A DNA stretch of 38,982 nt from a bacterium (GTDB lineage: Bacteria > Actinomycetota > Acidimicrobiia > Spongiisociales > Spongiisociaceae). Made by a program: the position numbers and the translations under genes. Shown here piece by piece: positions 25,136 through 33,639 of this stretch (position 1 is the first letter of the stretch; every line of letters starts with the position of its first letter). Under the pieces are notes generated by a model. That model was not told where the DNA came from. It searched no databases and saw only the letters and a list, made by a program, of their open reading frames with translations. Location of the stretch: contig JAPPHZ010000027.1 of assembly GCA_028820935.1 (NCBI GenBank), positions 1-38,982 of the forward strand. The letters run 5' to 3'.

Positions 25136-25164
25136 TTGACATTGGTCCTTTCGTATGGTCTAAT
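25136..25164 (+). promoter_or_regulatory. promoter of the SAM-riboswitch operon
   Basis: TTGACA (25136-25141), exactly 17 bases, TCTAAT (25159-25164). Transcription should begin near 25171, about ten bases before the riboswitch. Confidence 0.75.
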
Positions 25165-25181
25165 CCTGCTGTTACAACGCG

Positions 25182-25260
25182 CTCATCCAGAGCGGTGGAG
25201 GGACAGGCCCTTTGAAGCCGCGGCAACCGACATGAGCGGTGCCAATGCCTGATCGATGAG
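25182..25260 (+). promoter_or_regulatory. SAM-I (S-box) riboswitch
   Basis: P1 is formed by CTCATC (25182-25187) with GATGAG (25255-25260). Between them the S-box core reads AGCGGTGGAGGGACAGGCCC, then TTTGAAGCCGCGGCAACC and finally GGTGCCAATGCCTG, in the right order and spacing. SAM-I aptamers bind S-adenosylmethionine and usually switch off sulfur-amino-acid genes. Just downstream are a bulged GAGGCGG/CCGCTC stem and a perfect GCGCTC-AGAC-GAGCGC hairpin (25287-25302), but no U-run, so the switching mechanism is not a plain terminator. It precedes a short ORF and the osmC-like gene, an unusual target. Confidence 0.88.
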
Positions 25261-25328
25261 ACTGCCGAGGCGGGATTCCGCTCGCGGCGCTCAGACGAGC
25301 GCGTACAAGCGAGAGGAGACTGTCACAC

Positions 25329-25427
25329 ATGGATCGCCTGCACTTCAAGCCTTCAGCATCTGGCAGGTGCATGTGTTGTCCAGGCTCCCGGGTGATCCAC
25401 CCGGGCGGTCCTGGCAACCGCCCGTAG
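25329..25427 (+). CDS. putative cysteine-sensing leader peptide
   Basis: A 32-codon ORF (ATG to TAG) with AGGAG about ten bases upstream, located between the riboswitch and osmC. Codons 14-17 are TGC ATG TGT TGT (Cys-Met-Cys-Cys), a dense run of sulfur amino acids. The RNA hairpin 25383-25449 begins one codon after this run. That is the geometry of ribosome-mediated attenuation, where slow reading at Cys codons changes downstream folding. Cys-rich upstream ORFs acting this way are known in mycobacteria. Expression of this one is inferred from position and codon content. Confidence 0.55.
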   Translation: MDRLHFKPSASGRCMCCPGSRVIHPGGPGNRP

Positions 25428-25449
25428 CCGACGCCACCACCCGGGAGCC
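25383..25449 (+). promoter_or_regulatory. structured leader with two competing hairpins
   Basis: A 12-bp perfect stem joins GGCTCCCGGGTG (25383-25394) to CACCCGGGAGCC (25438-25449), enclosing a 7-bp hairpin GGGCGGT/ACCGCCC (25403-25423). The same 5' arm can instead form a local 7-bp hairpin CCGGGTG-ATC-CACCCGG (25388-25404). The leader-peptide stop codon lies at the foot of the inner hairpin. The mutually exclusive folds suggest a translation-dependent switch. It does not match a riboswitch class I recognise. Confidence 0.6.
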
Positions 25450-25589
25450 AACAAGGCCAACCAGCCACGGGTCCTCGATCCCGGACCTGTCGCCGACGCT
25501 CCGGATCTATCAGGACGGGGACTAGGCCAGAGCTGGTACAGCACGCAAGAACCAATCCGTAACCACGGAATCACGAAGGAGAAGAGACA

Positions 25590-26144
25590 ATGAGCACTGG
25601 TGACATCAACGGAGTCGATACGGCTCACCTGTTGTTCGCGCGGGGAGTGGTCGGGGACACACCGGCCGCCGGCGACTACACGTGGAGGGCCTCGAACGAG
25701 TGGGTCCACGGAACCCACAGCAAGACGCAGATCGATGGCTACTTCGGTCTCGGCGAGGAGCGCAACCACAAGGGGACCTACGAGTTCGAGGCCGACCATC
25801 CGCTGGAGTTCAACGCGGAGGACAATGCCGCCACTCCCGTGGAGATCGTGCTGGCGGGCCTGGCCAGCTGCCTGACAGCCGGCGTGGCCGCGGTGGCCGA
25901 GAACCGCGAGATCAAGCTCCGCTCGGTGAAGGCCACGCTCGAGGCCGACATGAACATCGGGGGCATCCTCGGATCCGACCCCGATGTCAGGAACGGGTTC
26001 AACGACGTCCGGGTCAACTACGAGATCGACGCCGACGACACGAGCGAGGCCGATCTCGAGGCGCTGGTGGCGCAGTCCCAGAAGATCTCGGCGGTCTTCG
26101 ACATCATGACCAATCCCACCAACGTGACCGTAAGCGTCGGCTGA
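25590..26144 (+). CDS. OsmC-family protein
   Basis: 184 residues. The OsmC/Ohr fold is seen in FEADHPLEFNAEDNAATPVE, then IVLAGLASCLTAGVAAVAENR (Cys94) and a C-terminal SQKISAVFDIMTNPTNVTVSV. Classical OsmC/Ohr peroxidases use two cysteines; here the second Cys position is replaced, so peroxide reduction by the usual mechanism is doubtful. An N-terminal extension of about 40 residues (ARGVVGDTPAAGDYTWRASN) is present. ATG with GAAGGAGAAGAG upstream. Under a SAM-I riboswitch and a Cys-rich leader ORF, a role with organic sulfur or persulfides is a reasonable inference. Confidence 0.85.
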   Translation: MSTGDINGVDTAHLLFARGVVGDTPAAGDYTWRASNEWVHGTHSKTQIDGYFGLGEERNHKGTYEFEADHPLEFNAEDNAATPVEIVLAGLASCLTAGVAAVAENREIKLRSVKATLEADMNIGGILGSDPDVRNGFNDVRVNYEIDADDTSEADLEALVAQSQKISAVFDIMTNPTNVTVSVG

Positions 26145-26167: not shown

Positions 26168-27421
26168 ATGCGTACTACCACCGTCGTCATCGGCGCCGGG
26201 CACAGCGGCTTGGCGGCGAGCTACTTCCTGTCGGCTCGGGGCATCGACCATGTGGTCCTGGAGCGGGGTGAGGTGGCCAATACCTGGCGGACCGAACGCT
26301 GGGACTCGCTGCGGCTGCTGACCCCCAACTGGCAGGTCAGCCTGCCCGGCCTCGCTTACGACGGTGACGATCCGGACGGCTTCATGACCGTGACGGAGTT
26401 GGTGGGCGTCATCGACCGGTACGCCCGGTTGGTGAACCCACCTCTCCGGACGCGCACCACCGTCACCTCGGTCCGCCCGGACGGTGACGGTTACGAGGTG
26501 GTGACCGACCGCGGCGTGTGGCGGTGCCGGTCGGTGATTCTGGCCAGCGGGGGCTTCAACCTGCCCAAGGTGCCCCCCATCGCGGCCGCCCTCCCCGACT
26601 CGGTCCGTTCCGTCACCCCGCACGAGTACCGCCGCCCCTCCGATCTCGAAGATGGAGGGGTGCTGGTGGTGGGGGTGTCCGCCACCGGCATCCAGCTCGC
26701 CGAGGAGATCCATAGATCGGGCCGTCCCGTCACCGTGTCGGTGGGTGAGCACGTGCGCATGCCCAGGATCTACAGAGGCCGGGATATCCGGTACTGGATG
26801 GACGTGACCGGCGTCTCCGACGAGCGCTACGACGAGGCGGACGATGTGTTCCGCGCCCGCCAGGTCCCCTCGCCCCAGCTGGTCGGATCCCCGGAGCGCA
26901 AGACCCTCGATCTCAACGCCCTGACCGACCAGGGGGTGCGGATGGTGGGTCGCCTGGCGGGGATCAGGGACGGAAAGGCCCAGCTGTCGGGATCCCTACA
27001 CAACAAGGTCACCCGCTCCGACCTCAAGATGAACCGCCTGCTGACCACCATCGACGAGTGGGTCACGGAGAACGGGTTGGACGGACGGTACGATCCACCC
27101 CATCGATTCGAGCGCACCCGGGTCGAGGACTCGCCGCCGCTGCTGATCGATCTGGACGGGGAGAACGTCCGCACCGTGCTGTGGGCGACCGGGTACCGCC
27201 CCGACTACTCGTGGCTCCACGTTCCGGTGGTGGACTACAAGGGCCGGATCCGCCACGACGGCGGGGTGGTGAGCGATTCGCCGGGCCTGTACGTGATCGG
27301 GTTGAATTTCCTGCGCCGTCGCAAGTCCAGCTTCATCCACGGCGCCGAGGACGACGCCCGCGACCTGGTCGATCACCTGGCTGCCTACCTGGAGGCTCGG
27401 GTGCCGGTGGGAGTCGGCTGA
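26168..27421 (+). CDS. flavin-dependent monooxygenase-like protein (CzcO type)
   Basis: 417 residues. The FAD-binding VVIGAGHSGLAASYFLSARG lies near the N-terminus, with GEVANTWRTERWDSLRLLTPN after it, as in CzcO-like flavoproteins. A second dinucleotide site VVGVSATGIQLAEEI is near the middle, and LWATGYRPDYSWLHVP is the late FAD/ATG motif. Members oxidise small nitrogen- or sulfur-containing compounds or are uncharacterised. It starts 23 bases after the osmC-like stop, with no separate promoter, so it should be co-regulated by the sulfur-responsive leader. C-terminal GLYVIGLNFLRRRKSSFIHGAEDDA is typical of the family. Confidence 0.85.
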   Translation: MRTTTVVIGAGHSGLAASYFLSARGIDHVVLERGEVANTWRTERWDSLRLLTPNWQVSLPGLAYDGDDPDGFMTVTELVGVIDRYARLVNPPLRTRTTVTSVRPDGDGYEVVTDRGVWRCRSVILASGGFNLPKVPPIAAALPDSVRSVTPHEYRRPSDLEDGGVLVVGVSATGIQLAEEIHRSGRPVTVSVGEHVRMPRIYRGRDIRYWMDVTGVSDERYDEADDVFRARQVPSPQLVGSPERKTLDLNALTDQGVRMVGRLAGIRDGKAQLSGSLHNKVTRSDLKMNRLLTTIDEWVTENGLDGRYDPPHRFERTRVEDSPPLLIDLDGENVRTVLWATGYRPDYSWLHVPVVDYKGRIRHDGGVVSDSPGLYVIGLNFLRRRKSSFIHGAEDDARDLVDHLAAYLEARVPVGVG

Positions 27422-27467
27422 CCCATCGCCGGCGCCGGTGGCAGGACACGAGCGAGGAGGTAGGCGG

Positions 27468-27866
27468 ATGGATTACGAGCCGGGAACACCGATCGTGATC
27501 ACCGAGGCGGAAGGGGTGGGACTGACCACTCCCGAGCCGTTCGTGCGACATGTGAAGGCATTGCTGTCTCCCTTGCTCCAGCCGGGCATAGGAGACTTCG
27601 CCATAGGCACCTGCGAGGTACCGCCCGGCCAGAAGGGGAGCCTGCACACGCACGCGGACGCCGCCGAGATCTGGATGTTCTCGGAGGGCAGGGGTCGGGC
27701 GACGGTGGGTGAGCGGGAGATCGTCACCGGTCCCGGCACGGTCGTCTTCACGCCTCCCGGAGTCAGCCACCAGTTCTTCAACACCGGAGACAGCCCGGTG
27801 AAGCTGTTCTGGATGTACAGCCCGTCGGGCGCGGAGCGGGACGTCATCGACGCCTGCTTCAGCTAG
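27468..27866 (+). CDS. small cupin-domain protein
   Basis: 132 residues, one cupin barrel. Motif 1 is GQKGSLHTHADAAEIWMFSEGRG (His-x-His plus Glu as metal ligands) and motif 2 is GPGTVVFTPPGVSHQFFNTGD (His). The metal site is complete. Small cupins act as dioxygenases, isomerases or ligand sensors; the substrate is unknown. It is the third gene of the SAM-riboswitch operon, 46 bases after the monooxygenase gene, with GAGGAGG upstream of the ATG. A sulfur-compound-related activity would fit the operon but is an inference. Confidence 0.88.
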   Translation: MDYEPGTPIVITEAEGVGLTTPEPFVRHVKALLSPLLQPGIGDFAIGTCEVPPGQKGSLHTHADAAEIWMFSEGRGRATVGEREIVTGPGTVVFTPPGVSHQFFNTGDSPVKLFWMYSPSGAERDVIDACFS

Positions 27867-28666: not shown

Positions 28667-30949
28667 TCAGCCGCCGTTGGCCCCGATGGCCTCCAGCACC
28701 TTGACCGGGGACATGGGCAGCTCGCTCATCCGCAGTCCGGTGGCGTCGTGGATGGCATTGGCCACCGCCGCCATGGGGGGCACGATGCCGACCTCGCCCA
28801 CCCCGCGCACTCCGTAGGGGTGGCCCGGATTGGGTACCTCGACAATGACCGTATCGATCATCGGCAGGTCAGAGGCGACCGGCATCCGGTAGTCCAGGAA
28901 TCCCGCGTTCTCCATGGTCCCGTCGGAGTCGAAGATGTACTCCTCGTTGAGCGCCCAGCCGATTCCCTGAGCCACCCCACCCTGCATCTGCCCTTCGACA
29001 TAGCTCGGATGGATGGCCCGCCCGGCATCCTGGGCGGTGGTGTACCGGAGGATCTTGACGTAGCCTGTCTCGGGATCGACCTCGACATCGCACACCTGGG
29101 TCGAGAAGGCGGCGCCCGCCCCCCGAGCGTTCACGGCGGCGCTGGCTGTGATGGGACCGCCCGTCCCGGCGGCGTCGGCGGCCAGATCCCTGGTGGTCAT
29201 AGGCGCCCGGTCCCCGGAGACGTGCTGGGCCCGTCCGTCCACCCATTCGACCTCCTCGACGTCGACATCCCAGACCTTGGCGGCCCGGACTCGCAGGTCG
29301 GCCACCACCTTGCGACAGGCGTCGATGACCGCCAAGCCGGTGGCGTGGGTGACCCGGCTCCCTCCGGTGACGTCGGTGTAGCCGACCGATTCGGTGTCGC
29401 TGACTATGGGGGTGATGTCGTAGACGTCGATGCCCAGTTCCTCCGCGGCCATGAGCGCCATCGAGGCCCGGCTCCCGCCGATGTCGGGACTGCCGGTGAG
29501 CACCGAGGCGGACCCGTCCTCGTTGATGTGTACCGTGGCGCTGGAGCTGCCCCCGAAGTTGAACCAGAAGCCGCTCGCCACTCCCCTGCCCTGGTTGGGC
29601 CCGAGCTCGATCGAGTATTGCGGGTGGTCCCGGACCGCCTCCACGGTCTCCCTGAAGCCGATCCGCTTGTGGATCGGCCCGTAGACGGACCGCACGCCCT
29701 CCTCGGCGGCATTACGGAGCCGGAAGTCGAGCGGATCCATGTCCAGCTGCTCCGCGATCTCGTCCAGCAGCGTCTCGGAGGCGAACGACGCCATCGGCGC
29801 TCCGGGCGCCCGGTAGGCGGTCACCTTCGGCATGTTGACCACCACGTCGAAGCCCTCGAGGAACACGTTCTCGATCGCGTAGGGGGCGAAGGCGCACATG
29901 CATCCCAGGCTCACCGGCGAACCCTTGAAGGCGCCTGCCTGGTAGGCCATGGAGCCCGACACCGCGGTCAGCCTGCCGTCCCTGGTGGCGCCCACCTTGA
30001 GACGTATCTTGCACCCGGAAGTGGGACCGGTGGCGCGGAACACCTCGTCACGGGTCATGACGATCTTGACCGGCCGGCCGGCCTTCTGCGAAAGCCGGGT
30101 CGCCACCGGCTCTATGTACACGGTCGTCTTGCCGCCGAAGCCTCCGCCGATCTCGGCGGGTATCACCTTCACCCGGGAAGGCTCCCACCCGAGCAGCTCC
30201 GCCGTGTGGGCCCGCACCATAAAGTGGCCCTGGGAGGAGCAGAAGACCATGGCCTTGCCGTCCTCGCCCACGTCCGCCACCACGGCGTGGGGCTCGATGT
30301 AGCCCTGGTGGACCGGTTGGGTTGCGAATTCCCGCTCCACTATCACATCGGCCTCGGCGAAGCCCTTCTCGATGTCCCCGCGGTCGATCACGTAGCGTGA
30401 GGCCACGTTGGAAGGCTTGTCCGGGACCGGATCCACACCCTCGGTGATCAGGTCCTCGTGGAGGATCGGGGCGTCGGGCGACATGGCCTCGGATACGTCC
30501 AGCACGTGAGGCAGGACTTGGTAGTCGACCTTGATGGCGGCGAGCGCCGTCAGCGCCTCCCGGCGGGAGGTGGCGGCTACGGCGGCCAGCGCATGGCCTT
30601 CGTAGAGCACCTTGTCACGCGCCATCACGTTGCGGCACAGGTCCAGGGGATCGTAATACTCCTCCCCGCTCCCTTCCCCGCCGGACTCCAGCATCGGGAA
30701 GTCGGCGCCCGTGACCACCGCCCGGACACCTTCCATCGCCTCGGCCGCCGAGGTGTCGATGGAGAGGATGCGGGCGTGGGCATGGGGAGACCGGAGCACT
30801 GCGCCGATCAGCATCCCGGGCAGGTTCAGGTCGGCGCCGTACTTGGCCCGGCCGGTCACCTTGTCGAGCCCGTCGTGGCGGACCGGACGGGTCCCGACCC
30901 ATTTGTAGCCAGGCTGGGAATCGGTGGTGGGGGTAGCGGTAACGGTCAC
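28667..30949 (-). CDS. molybdenum hydroxylase large subunit (xanthine dehydrogenase family)
   Basis: 760 residues. GRAKYGADLNLPGMLIGAVLRSP starts the Ald_Xan_dh domain; IPAEIGGGFGGKT and the active-site loop TAYRAPGAPMASFASE follow. The catalytic Glu719 lies in GVGEVGIVPPMAA. The loop lacks the AYRCSFR signature of form I carbon-monoxide dehydrogenase, so this is a xanthine-dehydrogenase-like hydroxylase of unknown substrate (purine, nicotinate, aldehyde or aromatic). The GTG start is chosen for AAGGAG six bases before it and because it begins 17 bases after the iron-sulfur subunit's stop. The frame runs 28 codons further upstream without support. Confidence 0.92.
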   Translation of the reverse strand: MTVTATPTTDSQPGYKWVGTRPVRHDGLDKVTGRAKYGADLNLPGMLIGAVLRSPHAHARILSIDTSAAEAMEGVRAVVTGADFPMLESGGEGSGEEYYDPLDLCRNVMARDKVLYEGHALAAVAATSRREALTALAAIKVDYQVLPHVLDVSEAMSPDAPILHEDLITEGVDPVPDKPSNVASRYVIDRGDIEKGFAEADVIVEREFATQPVHQGYIEPHAVVADVGEDGKAMVFCSSQGHFMVRAHTAELLGWEPSRVKVIPAEIGGGFGGKTTVYIEPVATRLSQKAGRPVKIVMTRDEVFRATGPTSGCKIRLKVGATRDGRLTAVSGSMAYQAGAFKGSPVSLGCMCAFAPYAIENVFLEGFDVVVNMPKVTAYRAPGAPMASFASETLLDEIAEQLDMDPLDFRLRNAAEEGVRSVYGPIHKRIGFRETVEAVRDHPQYSIELGPNQGRGVASGFWFNFGGSSSATVHINEDGSASVLTGSPDIGGSRASMALMAAEELGIDVYDITPIVSDTESVGYTDVTGGSRVTHATGLAVIDACRKVVADLRVRAAKVWDVDVEEVEWVDGRAQHVSGDRAPMTTRDLAADAAGTGGPITASAAVNARGAGAAFSTQVCDVEVDPETGYVKILRYTTAQDAGRAIHPSYVEGQMQGGVAQGIGWALNEEYIFDSDGTMENAGFLDYRMPVASDLPMIDTVIVEVPNPGHPYGVRGVGEVGIVPPMAAVANAIHDATGLRMSELPMSPVKVLEAIGANGG

Positions 30950-30965
30950 GCCTGTCTCCTTTGTC

Positions 30966-31454
30966 CTATGAAGCCGCGGCGGTCTCTCCCATACGGTCGG
31001 CCGCGTCCAGGATCGACCGCACGATCTTGTCATAACCGGTGCACCGGCAGAGGTTGCCGGCGACGGCGTAGCGCACTTCTTCCTCGGTGGGATCCGGGTT
31101 GCGGTCCAGTAGCGCCTTGCCGGCCACCAGGAAGCCGGGCGTGCAGATCCCGCACTGCAGGGCCGCTCCCTCCAGGAAGGTCTCCTGGAGCGGGTGGAGG
31201 CCGTCCGGGCCGGCCATCCCCTCGACCGTCTCGATCGTCGCCCCCTCCGCCTCCGGGGCGAAGACCAGGCAGGAACAGGTGAGGCGCCCGTCGAGGATGA
31301 CCGAGCACGCCCCGCAGTCGCCCGTGGCGCAGCCCTCCTTGACCCCCATCAGCCCGACCACGTCACGCAGCGCGTCCAGAAGGCTCTGATCCTCCTCGCA
31401 CAGGAACTCGGCGGGGTCGCCGTTGATGGTGCAGGTGACATGCTTTCTGCTCAT
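30966..31454 (-). CDS. molybdenum hydroxylase 2Fe-2S subunit
   Basis: 162 residues. The N-terminal plant-ferredoxin-type site has GCATGDCGACSVILDG (Cys42, 47, 50, with Cys62 completing it), and the second helical-domain site has LQCGICTPG and NLCRCTGYD (Cys101, 104, 136, 138). These two clusters pass electrons from the molybdenum centre to FAD. Normal length for CoxS/XdhC-type small subunits. Middle gene of the operon. Confidence 0.95.
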   Translation of the reverse strand: MSRKHVTCTINGDPAEFLCEEDQSLLDALRDVVGLMGVKEGCATGDCGACSVILDGRLTCSCLVFAPEAEGATIETVEGMAGPDGLHPLQETFLEGAALQCGICTPGFLVAGKALLDRNPDPTEEEVRYAVAGNLCRCTGYDKIVRSILDAADRMGETAAAS

Positions 31455-31484
31455 ACGGGGATCCTCACTGGTGCGGGCGCTTCA

Positions 31485-32345
31485 TCAGCCGGTCCGGGCG
31501 GCGCGACGGGCCGCCAGCCTGAGGGCCCTCACCGCCAGCACTCCGGCCACCTGCCGGCGGTATGCGATGGTGCCGCGCTTGTCGTCGATGGGGTTGCAGA
31601 CCGCCGAGGCCTCCGCCGCCACCCGTTTCAAGGCCTCCTCGGTGAGCGGGTGGCCCACCAGGATGTCCGCAGCCGCCGGAACCATGACCACGGTGGGCGC
31701 CACGGCGCCCAGGGCGACCGACACCTCCCGGCATCTTCCCGCGTCATCGAGCGTGAGGCGGGCGCCGGCGCCGACCACCGCGATGTCCATCTCGGTGCGG
31801 GGGATGAACCGCAGGTAGGCGTCGGAGGTGCGGGGCGGGGGACGGTCGAACACGAGCTCGACCAGGAACTCGTCGGTGGCCAGCGACGTGGTGCCGGGGC
31901 CGGTGACCACCGAGGCCACCGGGATGGTTCTCATTCCCGCGGGTCCGGCGATCACCGCCCGACCGTCGTTCACCACCATGGCCGGAACGGAGTCGGCGGC
32001 AGGCGAGGCGTTGCACAGGTTGCCGCCCAGGCTGGCGCGGCTCTGGATCTGATCCGATCCGATCAGGTGTGCCGCCTCCACCAATCCCGGCAGGTCGGCG
32101 ACCAGGTCCTCCTCCTCGCTCAGCCGTGCCGAGGGGGCGGCGGCGCCGATCACCCACGTATCCCCTTCCCTGTGAAGGTCTGTCAGCCGGTCGATCCGCT
32201 TGAGATCGACTGCCACGCCGGGCTCCGGCCGGCCCATCCGCAGCTGGGGGATGAAGTCGGTGGCCCCGGCGTACACCTGGGCACGGATGTCGCCGGCCAG
32301 GACCGAAACGGTCTCTTCGATGGATGTGGGGGCGACATACCTCAT
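31485..32345 (-). CDS. molybdenum hydroxylase FAD-binding subunit
   Basis: 286 residues. AGATDFIPQLRMGRPEPGVAVD and IGSDQIQSRASLGGNLCNASPAADS are the FAD-binding motifs of CoxM/XdhB-type subunits; the C-terminal CO_deh_flav_C region (RFIPRTEMDIAVVGAGARLTL) follows. It transfers electrons to the external acceptor. ATG at the family's usual N-terminus (MRYVAPTSIEET); GGAGGAGG lies somewhat far upstream. First gene of the four-gene operon that ends with the MoaD-like gene. Confidence 0.92.
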   Translation of the reverse strand: MRYVAPTSIEETVSVLAGDIRAQVYAGATDFIPQLRMGRPEPGVAVDLKRIDRLTDLHREGDTWVIGAAAPSARLSEEEDLVADLPGLVEAAHLIGSDQIQSRASLGGNLCNASPAADSVPAMVVNDGRAVIAGPAGMRTIPVASVVTGPGTTSLATDEFLVELVFDRPPPRTSDAYLRFIPRTEMDIAVVGAGARLTLDDAGRCREVSVALGAVAPTVVMVPAAADILVGHPLTEEALKRVAAEASAVCNPIDDKRGTIAYRRQVAGVLAVRALRLAARRAARTG

Positions 32346-32510
32346 GGCACAACCGAACTCGTAGCTCCTCCTCCGGAGAACTGGACAAAGGCGCTCGTCG
32401 AGCCCCCGGAGACGGCCCGCAGGGTAGCAGGCACGCGTGTCTCCGAGCATGGCGCCACCATCGGCCGGCGCCCTCCTGCCGCCACGGCCGTTCGGCCCCA
32501 CACCGCTAGC

Positions 32511-32541
32511 GTTGCGGATTGCAACCCCCGCACAACAATCC
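32511..32541. promoter_or_regulatory. inverted repeats in the divergent promoter region
   Basis: Two overlapping inverted repeats lie between the divergent hydroxylase operon and the Ldh_2-type gene: GTTGC-GGATT-GCAAC (32511-32525), and GGATTG...CAATCC (32516-32521 with 32536-32541). TAGCGT at 32507 could be a -10 box for the rightward gene. A shared operator is possible. Confidence 0.3.
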
Positions 32542-32580
32542 GGCACGAGTACCCGCCGGCGGAACCGAGAGGACACCAGC

Positions 32581-33639
32581 ATGTGGAAGGTCTCACCCAC
32601 CCGGCTCGAGGACATCTGTACCGCGATAATCCGGGCGGCGGGAGCGCCCGGCTCCGACGCCCGGCTGGTGGCGGACCACCTGGTCGACAACGACGTCATC
32701 GGGCACCACTCCCACGGGGTCATACGGCTGTGGGACTACATCGAGTGGGCTCATCAGGGCGATCTGATCCCCGGCGCCCGTCCCCGGATCGTCAGCGAGA
32801 CACCCTCCACCGCCCGGATCGACGGTAACTGGAACTTCGGCCAGGTGGTCGCCACCTACGCAACCGGCCTAGCCATCGAGAAGGCCCGGACCGCCGGGGT
32901 CAGCGCGGTGACCATCCGGAGGGTGAAGCACATCGGCCGGCTGGGCCGCTACGCCGAGCAGGTGGCCGGGGAGGGCCTAGTGTCGATGATCTTTACCAAC
33001 GGCGGCGGCCACGGCATCAACCAGGCGCCGTTCCGCGGCACGGAGCGGAAGCTGTGCTCCAACCCGATAGCCATGTCGGTGCCGTCCCGCCTGGCCGGAC
33101 CCTTCCTGCTGGACTTCGCCACCTCGGTGGCGGCGGAGGGCAAGGTGCGCGTATACAGGGCGCGGGGAACTCCCACACCCTCCGGCTGGATCCTCGACTC
33201 CGACGGGAACCCGTCCACCGATCCCGGGGACCTAGCCGCCGGCGGGGCGTTGCTCCCGTTCGGAAGGGCCGAAGGGCACAAGGGCTACGCGCTCGCGTTC
33301 ATGGTGGAGTTGCTGGCCGGGGTGATGTCGGGCGGGGGTATCTCGGGCGATCCCGGCCGTTCCTTCAGCAACGATTCGATGATCATCGTGATCGATCCCG
33401 AGCTTTTCGTGCCCATTGCCGAGCTCCAGGAGCGGTCCCTGACGCTGACCGAGCACCTCAAGGACACCCGCCTGGCCGATGAGTCGGAGCCGGTCCTGTA
33501 TCCGGGCGAGAAGGAAGCGGAGGCGCGGTCGGCCAATCGGGGACGTGACATCGAGCTGCCCGACCCGGTACGCCAACAGCTTCTGACGATGCTCCGGCGA
33601 TTCTCGCTACCCGAGGCGAAGTTCGCCTCCTCCGGCTAG
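32581..33639 (+). CDS. Ldh_2-family NAD(P)-dependent dehydrogenase
   Basis: 352 residues. The malate/L-lactate/ureidoglycolate dehydrogenase family is recognised by DNDVIGHHSHGVIRL (catalytic SHG, His45), YATGLAIEKAR, GGGHGINQAPFRGTERKLCSNPIAM and LLDFATSVAAEGKVR, plus AEGHKGYALAFMVELLAGVMSG. Members reduce or oxidise 2-hydroxy acids, including ureidoglycolate in purine breakdown. Its divergent pairing with a xanthine-dehydrogenase-like enzyme makes a purine or N-heterocycle pathway attractive, but the substrate is not readable. ATG with GAGAGGA upstream. Confidence 0.9.
   Translation: MWKVSPTRLEDICTAIIRAAGAPGSDARLVADHLVDNDVIGHHSHGVIRLWDYIEWAHQGDLIPGARPRIVSETPSTARIDGNWNFGQVVATYATGLAIEKARTAGVSAVTIRRVKHIGRLGRYAEQVAGEGLVSMIFTNGGGHGINQAPFRGTERKLCSNPIAMSVPSRLAGPFLLDFATSVAAEGKVRVYRARGTPTPSGWILDSDGNPSTDPGDLAAGGALLPFGRAEGHKGYALAFMVELLAGVMSGGGISGDPGRSFSNDSMIIVIDPELFVPIAELQERSLTLTEHLKDTRLADESEPVLYPGEKEAEARSANRGRDIELPDPVRQQLLTMLRRFSLPEAKFASSG

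Follow-up and report, generated by a model that had tools for sequence, protein, structure and literature searches.

A 2020 study by Canestrari et al. is said to have described mycobacterial cysteine-responsive attenuators built on poly-cysteine leaderless short open reading frames. Mycobacterial cysteine attenuators are also cited in PMC13236596. A leader that resembles these attenuators in part was found in a 38,982-nucleotide (nt) contig of an acidimicrobiial assembly (JAPPHZ010000027.1, GCA_028820935.1; the whole contig is referred to here as the window), where a SAM-I (S-adenosylmethionine, SAM) riboswitch and a short upstream open reading frame (uORF) with clustered Cys and Met codons precede an osmC-like gene. 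As in the mycobacterial attenuators, a Cys-codon uORF lies before sulfur genes, stalling is proposed to shift the downstream pairing, and the family members that lack the riboswitch look leaderless. Unlike them, the leader described here has mixed Cys and Met codons and several covarying, mutually exclusive stems around the stop codon; its family includes 54 copies in which SAM-I precedes a uORF led by a Shine-Dalgarno sequence, and the osmC Shine-Dalgarno was not found to be sequestered consistently.

Other described systems share further parts of the arrangement. In Mycobacterium tuberculosis, riboswitches control uORFs in the B12/ppe2 (PMC11260477) and Mbox/pe20 (PMC12810186) leaders; there, as proposed here, a riboswitch with a translational platform acts on a uORF and not directly on the main gene, but no amino-acid sensing is described for those uORFs, and the ligand, organism and stems differ. 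The leaderless metL peptide of Streptomyces lividans (MSTTSDRTPATEATTTPGARCMCRRMCAF, before metNIQ; PMC8079986) likewise mixes Cys and Met and lacks a typical Rho-independent terminator, although no riboswitch is described there and the peptide and stem differ. The uORFC-8-2 motif of Rhodobacterales cysS (PMC8632094) holds a uORF with two tandem Cys codons within conserved stems, a likeness offset by its intrinsic terminator with a U run, its single target cysS and its lack of a riboswitch. In Candidatus Pelagibacter ubique, osmC also lies downstream of a SAM riboswitch and is induced by sulfur limitation (PMC5069961); that riboswitch, however, is of another class (SAM-V), acts directly on ribosome binding to the gene and has no sensor uORF. 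Each part of the leader has precedents; a serial fusion in which SAM-I feeds an amino-acid-sensing uORF was not found in the non-subscription literature searched.

The leader is likely to be a two-stage sulfur sensor, in which SAM-I would gate a Cys/Met sensor uORF and the position of the ribosome on that uORF would pick the downstream fold. From 5′ to 3′ on the forward strand, it comprises a promoter, the SAM-I aptamer, its platform, the uORF and a 12-bp stem with a competing hairpin, followed by osmC at 25590. Apart from the platform, all of these leader elements had been proposed in a first-pass annotation of the sequence, and all were recovered. The promoter (25136-25164; TTGACA at 25136-25141, a 17-nt spacer and TCTAAT at 25159-25164) was read by eye and recurs in relatives; a strict promoter scan did not score TTGACA-17-TCTAAT because the -10 element has no A at position 2. 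A covariance-model search identified the aptamer at 25180-25262 as RF00162, with 68.3 bits (E 5e-14) against an Rfam gathering score of 44.4 bits. The platform ends in the uORF Shine-Dalgarno (AGAGGAGA, 25312-25319), and the uORF itself (25329-25427) has 32 codons and encodes MDRLHFKPSASGRCMCCPGSRVIHPGGPGNRP. Sequence and relatives point to TGC ATG TGT TGT (Cys-Met-Cys-Cys, 25368-25379) as the proposed stall site, which ends one codon 5′ of the 12-bp stem.

To define the family, 32 leaders were aligned (A1) and converted to a covariance model (R1). Within the host's order, 62 genomes held 90 strong copies (E <= 1e-4); 54 of them sit 42-139 nt 3′ of a same-strand SAM-I aptamer, and the other 36 have no SAM-I. 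SAM-I itself is present in 95 of 138 genomes of the order, and the host genome carries a second site, which again precedes an osmC paralog with a similar leader. The named records among the relatives are metagenome-assembled genomes (MAGs) of Acidimicrobiia, many sponge-derived, and the group bearing the composite leader consists mostly of uncultured soil, water and sponge bacteria. Comparison of the uORF-stem region with Rfam models returned chance-level matches only and no described family. The pattern TGYCCNGGNTCNCGNGTN was also tried as a finder and was set aside, as its matches lay mostly by chance inside coding genes, with a few true SAM-free copies among them.

The function of the uORF was examined by counting Cys and Met codons among the eight codons before the 5′ arm of the stem in all three frames. 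In 45 aligned loci, 150 of 360 codons in the uORF frame were Cys or Met, compared with 44/360 and 5/360 in the other frames. The same bias was found in 39 further loci (146/312 against 57 and 16), giving 296/672 (44%) over all 84 loci and 15% and 3% in the other frames. No in-frame stop occurred among these codons. At the kept position the motifs include CMCC, CSC, CCC, MCVC, MAMM and MCMCLC. By these counts and motifs the uORF is a predicted sensor of both Cys and Met codons and is not cysteine-specific. The uORF stop precedes the 3′ arm of the stem in 83 of 84 loci; in the window it is a TAG at 25425-25427, between the arms. The hallmarks of a leader-peptide attenuator are thus present, namely codons for the regulated amino acids adjoining alternative stems and a stop codon between the pairing arms.

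The stems themselves were examined next to these codons. The segment 25370-25455 folds at -43.9 kcal/mol (z = -4.4 relative to shuffles). Folding and covariation both identify the 12-bp stem, stem 1, with its 5′ arm (GGCTCCCGGGTG) at 25383-25394 and its 3′ arm (CACCCGGGAGCC) at 25438-25449. Two-sided changes occur at 8 of its 12 pairs (23 cells), a level reached in 0 of 500 shuffles, and in slid controls the paired fraction drops to 32-51%. The local 7-bp hairpin, stem 0 (25387-25405; CCCGGGT at 25387-25393 and ACCCGGG at 25399-25405), competes with stem 1 and recurs in 43 of 67 distinct loci; its own pairing, 15.07, compares with 14.27 +/- 0.21 for swapped partners and was higher in 500/500 cases. 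A third pairing, stem 2, has its left arm just 5′ of the stem 1 3′ arm and its right arm mostly 7-25 nt 3′ of that arm, with an own pairing of 16.7 compared with 13.6 +/- 0.27 when partners were swapped between loci. In the window, GACGCC (25430-25435) occupies the position of its left arm. Stem 2 cannot nest with stem 1, and neither stem 0 nor stem 2 can coexist with stem 1; a two-state switch between stem 1 on one side and stems 0 and 2 on the other follows from this exclusion. The switchable hairpin of the first-pass annotation therefore stands in that stem 0 recurs and covaries, but the most widespread alternative partner is stem 2, further downstream. Neither a loss of the Cys/Met codons nor a lack of covariation was found in relatives: the Cys/Met codons are kept and the stems covary.

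In two genera (G030a, L045; G030c, L079; G055a, L108), a short hairpin beside or over the uORF stop replaces the stem, for example GAATGCC-CTA-GGCATTC after HRCCRMP, which makes these leaders a minimal version of the same design.

The influence of SAM was sought in the sequence between the aptamer and the uORF. In the window, the outer P1 5′ strand (ACGCGCTC, 25177-25184) can pair with an anti-P1 strand (GAGCGCGT, 25297-25304) through 8 bp of complementarity, and the anti-P1 strand is also the 3′ side of a hairpin sequestering the uORF Shine-Dalgarno. Such a partner lies about 34 nt after the aptamer, and the best match has p<0.05 in 57 of 84 SAM-I loci. The paired sequences differ between loci while their pairing is kept (ACGCGCTC/GAGCGCGT, CGAAGCGCT/AGCGTTTCG, GAAACGCT/AGCGTTTC and CTCGTTGTGTTC/GAGCGCAACGAG), so that the P1/anti-P1 expression platform expected of a SAM-I riboswitch is present. 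Between the anti-P1 strand and the next Shine-Dalgarno there are at most about 10-15 nt; this Shine-Dalgarno is that of the uORF in composite leaders and the gene's own in metH loci, and a uORF Shine-Dalgarno is present in nearly all SAM-I-bearing loci. From this placement, SAM most likely gates the start of uORF translation and does not act on osmC directly.

The aptamer, platform, uORF frame, Cys/Met codons, stop position and exclusive, covarying stems are supported by comparison, and a mechanism can be proposed from these parts in which SAM binding, stalling, the ON/OFF assignment and the output step are inferred. In the first stage, SAM-I and its P1/anti-P1 platform would control initiation on the uORF; at high SAM, P1 would stay formed and the uORF Shine-Dalgarno would be held in its hairpin. 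In the second stage, at low SAM, the uORF would be translated and ribosomes would read the supply of charged Cys- and Met-tRNA at Cys-Met-Cys-Cys. With these tRNAs charged, the ribosome would run on to the stop codon that lies between the arms, leaving the 12-bp stem free to form behind it. With them uncharged, the ribosome would stall with its footprint over the 5′ arm, blocking stem 1 and, in most relatives, favouring stem 2. Stem 1 would then be the OFF state and stalling the ON state, an assignment made because sulfur genes should rise under limitation, and full expression of the operon would require low SAM together with low charged Cys/Met-tRNA. Integration of the SAM level with Cys/Met-tRNA charging, as the first-pass annotation had suggested, is the reading that best fits the composite leader and its conserved, covarying and mutually exclusive stems across the order; its emphasis on cysteine was not borne out, as motifs from CCC to MAMM occupy the sensor position.

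Several observations weigh against this mechanism. In equilibrium folding with P1 forbidden, the unpaired fraction of the uORF Shine-Dalgarno went from 0.32 to 0.37; as this is no opening at equilibrium, either the SAM step would need to be kinetic or too much is being read into it. The genus of the window itself has a weak stem 2 or none, the partner of GACGCC being weak or lost there. In the window and in most loci, none of the stems is followed by a U-tract, and masking of the 5′ arm raised the mean accessibility of the osmC Shine-Dalgarno only slightly in 45 loci, from 0.58 to 0.66. Because R1 includes the codon columns, its matches lean towards Cys and Met, and the second set of loci in the codon count is not fully independent; the loci also share ancestry and are not independent of one another.

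The small change at the uORF Shine-Dalgarno is what would be expected if the two devices were independent off-switches in tandem, SAM-I acting alone through termination or mRNA decay and the uORF-stem unit forming a separate Cys/Met attenuator that ribosomes reach on their own, with no gating by SAM. Each device does occur without the other: SAM-I alone precedes metH and threonine synthase, and among the 36 of 90 strong copies that lack SAM-I, several carry a -10-like element immediately 5′ of the uORF start, which gives them a leaderless appearance. The window uORF itself, with its Shine-Dalgarno and long 5′ leader, is not leaderless. Composite leaders show no other ribosome entry to the uORF, and anti-P1 and the uORF Shine-Dalgarno keep a fixed distance, in the platform that in metH loci precedes the gene's own Shine-Dalgarno. 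These last two observations make independent switches an unlikely explanation, and gating of the uORF by SAM-I is preferred.

The output step was also examined. An intrinsic terminator of the trp attenuator type was rejected, as in the window and most loci neither stem 1 nor stem 2 leads into a T-run. Nor was the long stem found to sequester the osmC Shine-Dalgarno consistently in the 45 loci, of which 15 gained more than 0.1 in accessibility on masking of the 5′ arm and one fell. As there is neither a U-tract nor such sequestration, the output of the proposed gate would be Rho-dependent termination or another effect. Rho-dependent termination, by analogy with the M. tuberculosis Mbox leader (PMC12810186), is the leading candidate. 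It would call for an exposed rut region, rich in C and poor in G, between the uORF and the gene; the sequence downstream of the stem is 35% C and 26% G, but the upstream part is equally C-rich. The direction of the response could also be inverted, with uORF translation needed for expression, either to shield the transcript from Rho or to couple to osmC, and Cys/Met stalling lowering the output. In one relative (G111a) the uORF frame does continue to overlap the osmC start. However, in 83 of 84 loci translation of the uORF would end between the arms, at a good distance from the gene, and genes for sulfur acquisition and methionine would be expected to rise under Cys/Met limitation, so this inverse logic is improbable. 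It is far less probable still that the uORF product works as a Cys/Met-rich microprotein that binds metal or thiols, with the RNA stem either incidental or acting as a stability element: within the window's genus CPGSRV hardly varies, but the peptide is almost wholly different outside it, Cys and Met interchange, no CxxC-type spacing is kept and the arms covary as RNA. CPGSRV was accordingly rejected as a conserved element, since SRV follows from the paired 5′ arm and the rest varies.

The distribution of the composite leader was examined in 395 genomes sampled across the class. The sole R1 match outside the order below E 1e-3 (G154) was rejected because it sits inside a long coding frame. SAM-I loci of other orders in the class lacked a Cys/Met uORF in 38 of 39 cases, the remaining one (L288) being a single short, unconvincing candidate, and, judging by the translations, these sites lie 5′ of a threonine-synthase-like gene, mostly right next to it. 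With SAM-I sites elsewhere in the class lacking the uORF and no convincing R1 match outside, the composite leader seems to have arisen within this order.

Within the order, copies precede two osmC paralogs, metY (TIGR01326, 698 bits), rhodanese domains, Cys/Met-metabolism pyridoxal 5′-phosphate (PLP) enzymes including a metZ-like one, and a SsuA-family sulfonate binding protein (TIGR01728, 236.8 bits, above cut-off) with a SsuC-like permease. SAM-free Cys/Met uORF attenuators were seen before rhodanese-type sulfurtransferase genes at eight loci (L175, L176, L179, L181, L182, L184, L188 and L190), where the -10 element is often directly 5′ of the uORF start, as in a leaderless transcript. At two loci (L187, G020:C30; L183, G040:C247) the attenuator precedes a metZ-like Cys/Met PLP enzyme and is divergent to a SAM-I on the opposite strand, which in G020 belongs to metH. 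In the simplest history, SAM-I came to be set in front of an attenuator that was already there.

In the window, the leader is followed by the osmC Shine-Dalgarno (AAGGAG, 25576-25581) and three forward-strand genes. The osmC-like gene (25590-26144) has a domain match to PF02566 and is a homolog of PDB 2opl; a flavin-dependent oxidoreductase/monooxygenase (Pyr_redox_3; 26168-27421) has TIGR04046 as its nearest NCBIfam model, below the cut-off of that model; and a Cupin_2 protein (27438-27866, ATG possibly at 27468) adjoins osmC only in close relatives. The osmC and TIGR04046-like flavin oxidoreductase genes form a conserved pair across phyla, adjacent in 79 of 80 loci (L206-L285), including those of cultured Amycolatopsis, Mesorhizobium and Solirubrobacter. 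After the operon, the opposite strand carries a xanthine dehydrogenase/carbon monoxide dehydrogenase-like molybdoenzyme set (28667-32723, minus strand) with large, small and probably flavin adenine dinucleotide subunits. In one acidimicrobiial relative (L277, 6300-6439), the osmC locus has a cyclic di-AMP riboswitch (73.4 bits) downstream of it.

The gene pair was also seen in alpha- and gammaproteobacterial MAGs from sponges, behind a near-identical SAM-I aptamer and platform (L221, L222, L223, L224, L225, L228, L236, L242 and L245; SAM-I was called with Rfam in L222, L223 and L236 and by eye in others). These osmC orthologs combine SAM-I with another kind of uORF, in many cases one that ends in Cys-Thr-stop on a hairpin, and the stem of the acidimicrobiial order was not present. 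The similarity suggests horizontal transfer of the leader together with the operon. On balance, a fuller account seems probable, in which a serial two-input cis sulfur gate, with SAM-I deciding deployment of the Cys/Met uORF sensor, arose in one acidimicrobiial order when SAM-I came to lie before a pre-existing leaderless attenuator with a wider sulfur regulon, the osmC leader later being shared with sponge-associated Proteobacteria.

Riboswitches and leader-peptide attenuators are normally viewed as alternatives; here, with clear support from comparison, they stand in series in 54 copies, so that one mRNA leader could read the end product SAM as well as the charging of its precursor amino acids. 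The arrangement offers a natural two-input device and a sulfur-gene regulon of uncultured Acidimicrobiia. It may also lead to genes whose part in sulfur metabolism is unknown, among them the widespread pair of osmC and flavin oxidoreductase.
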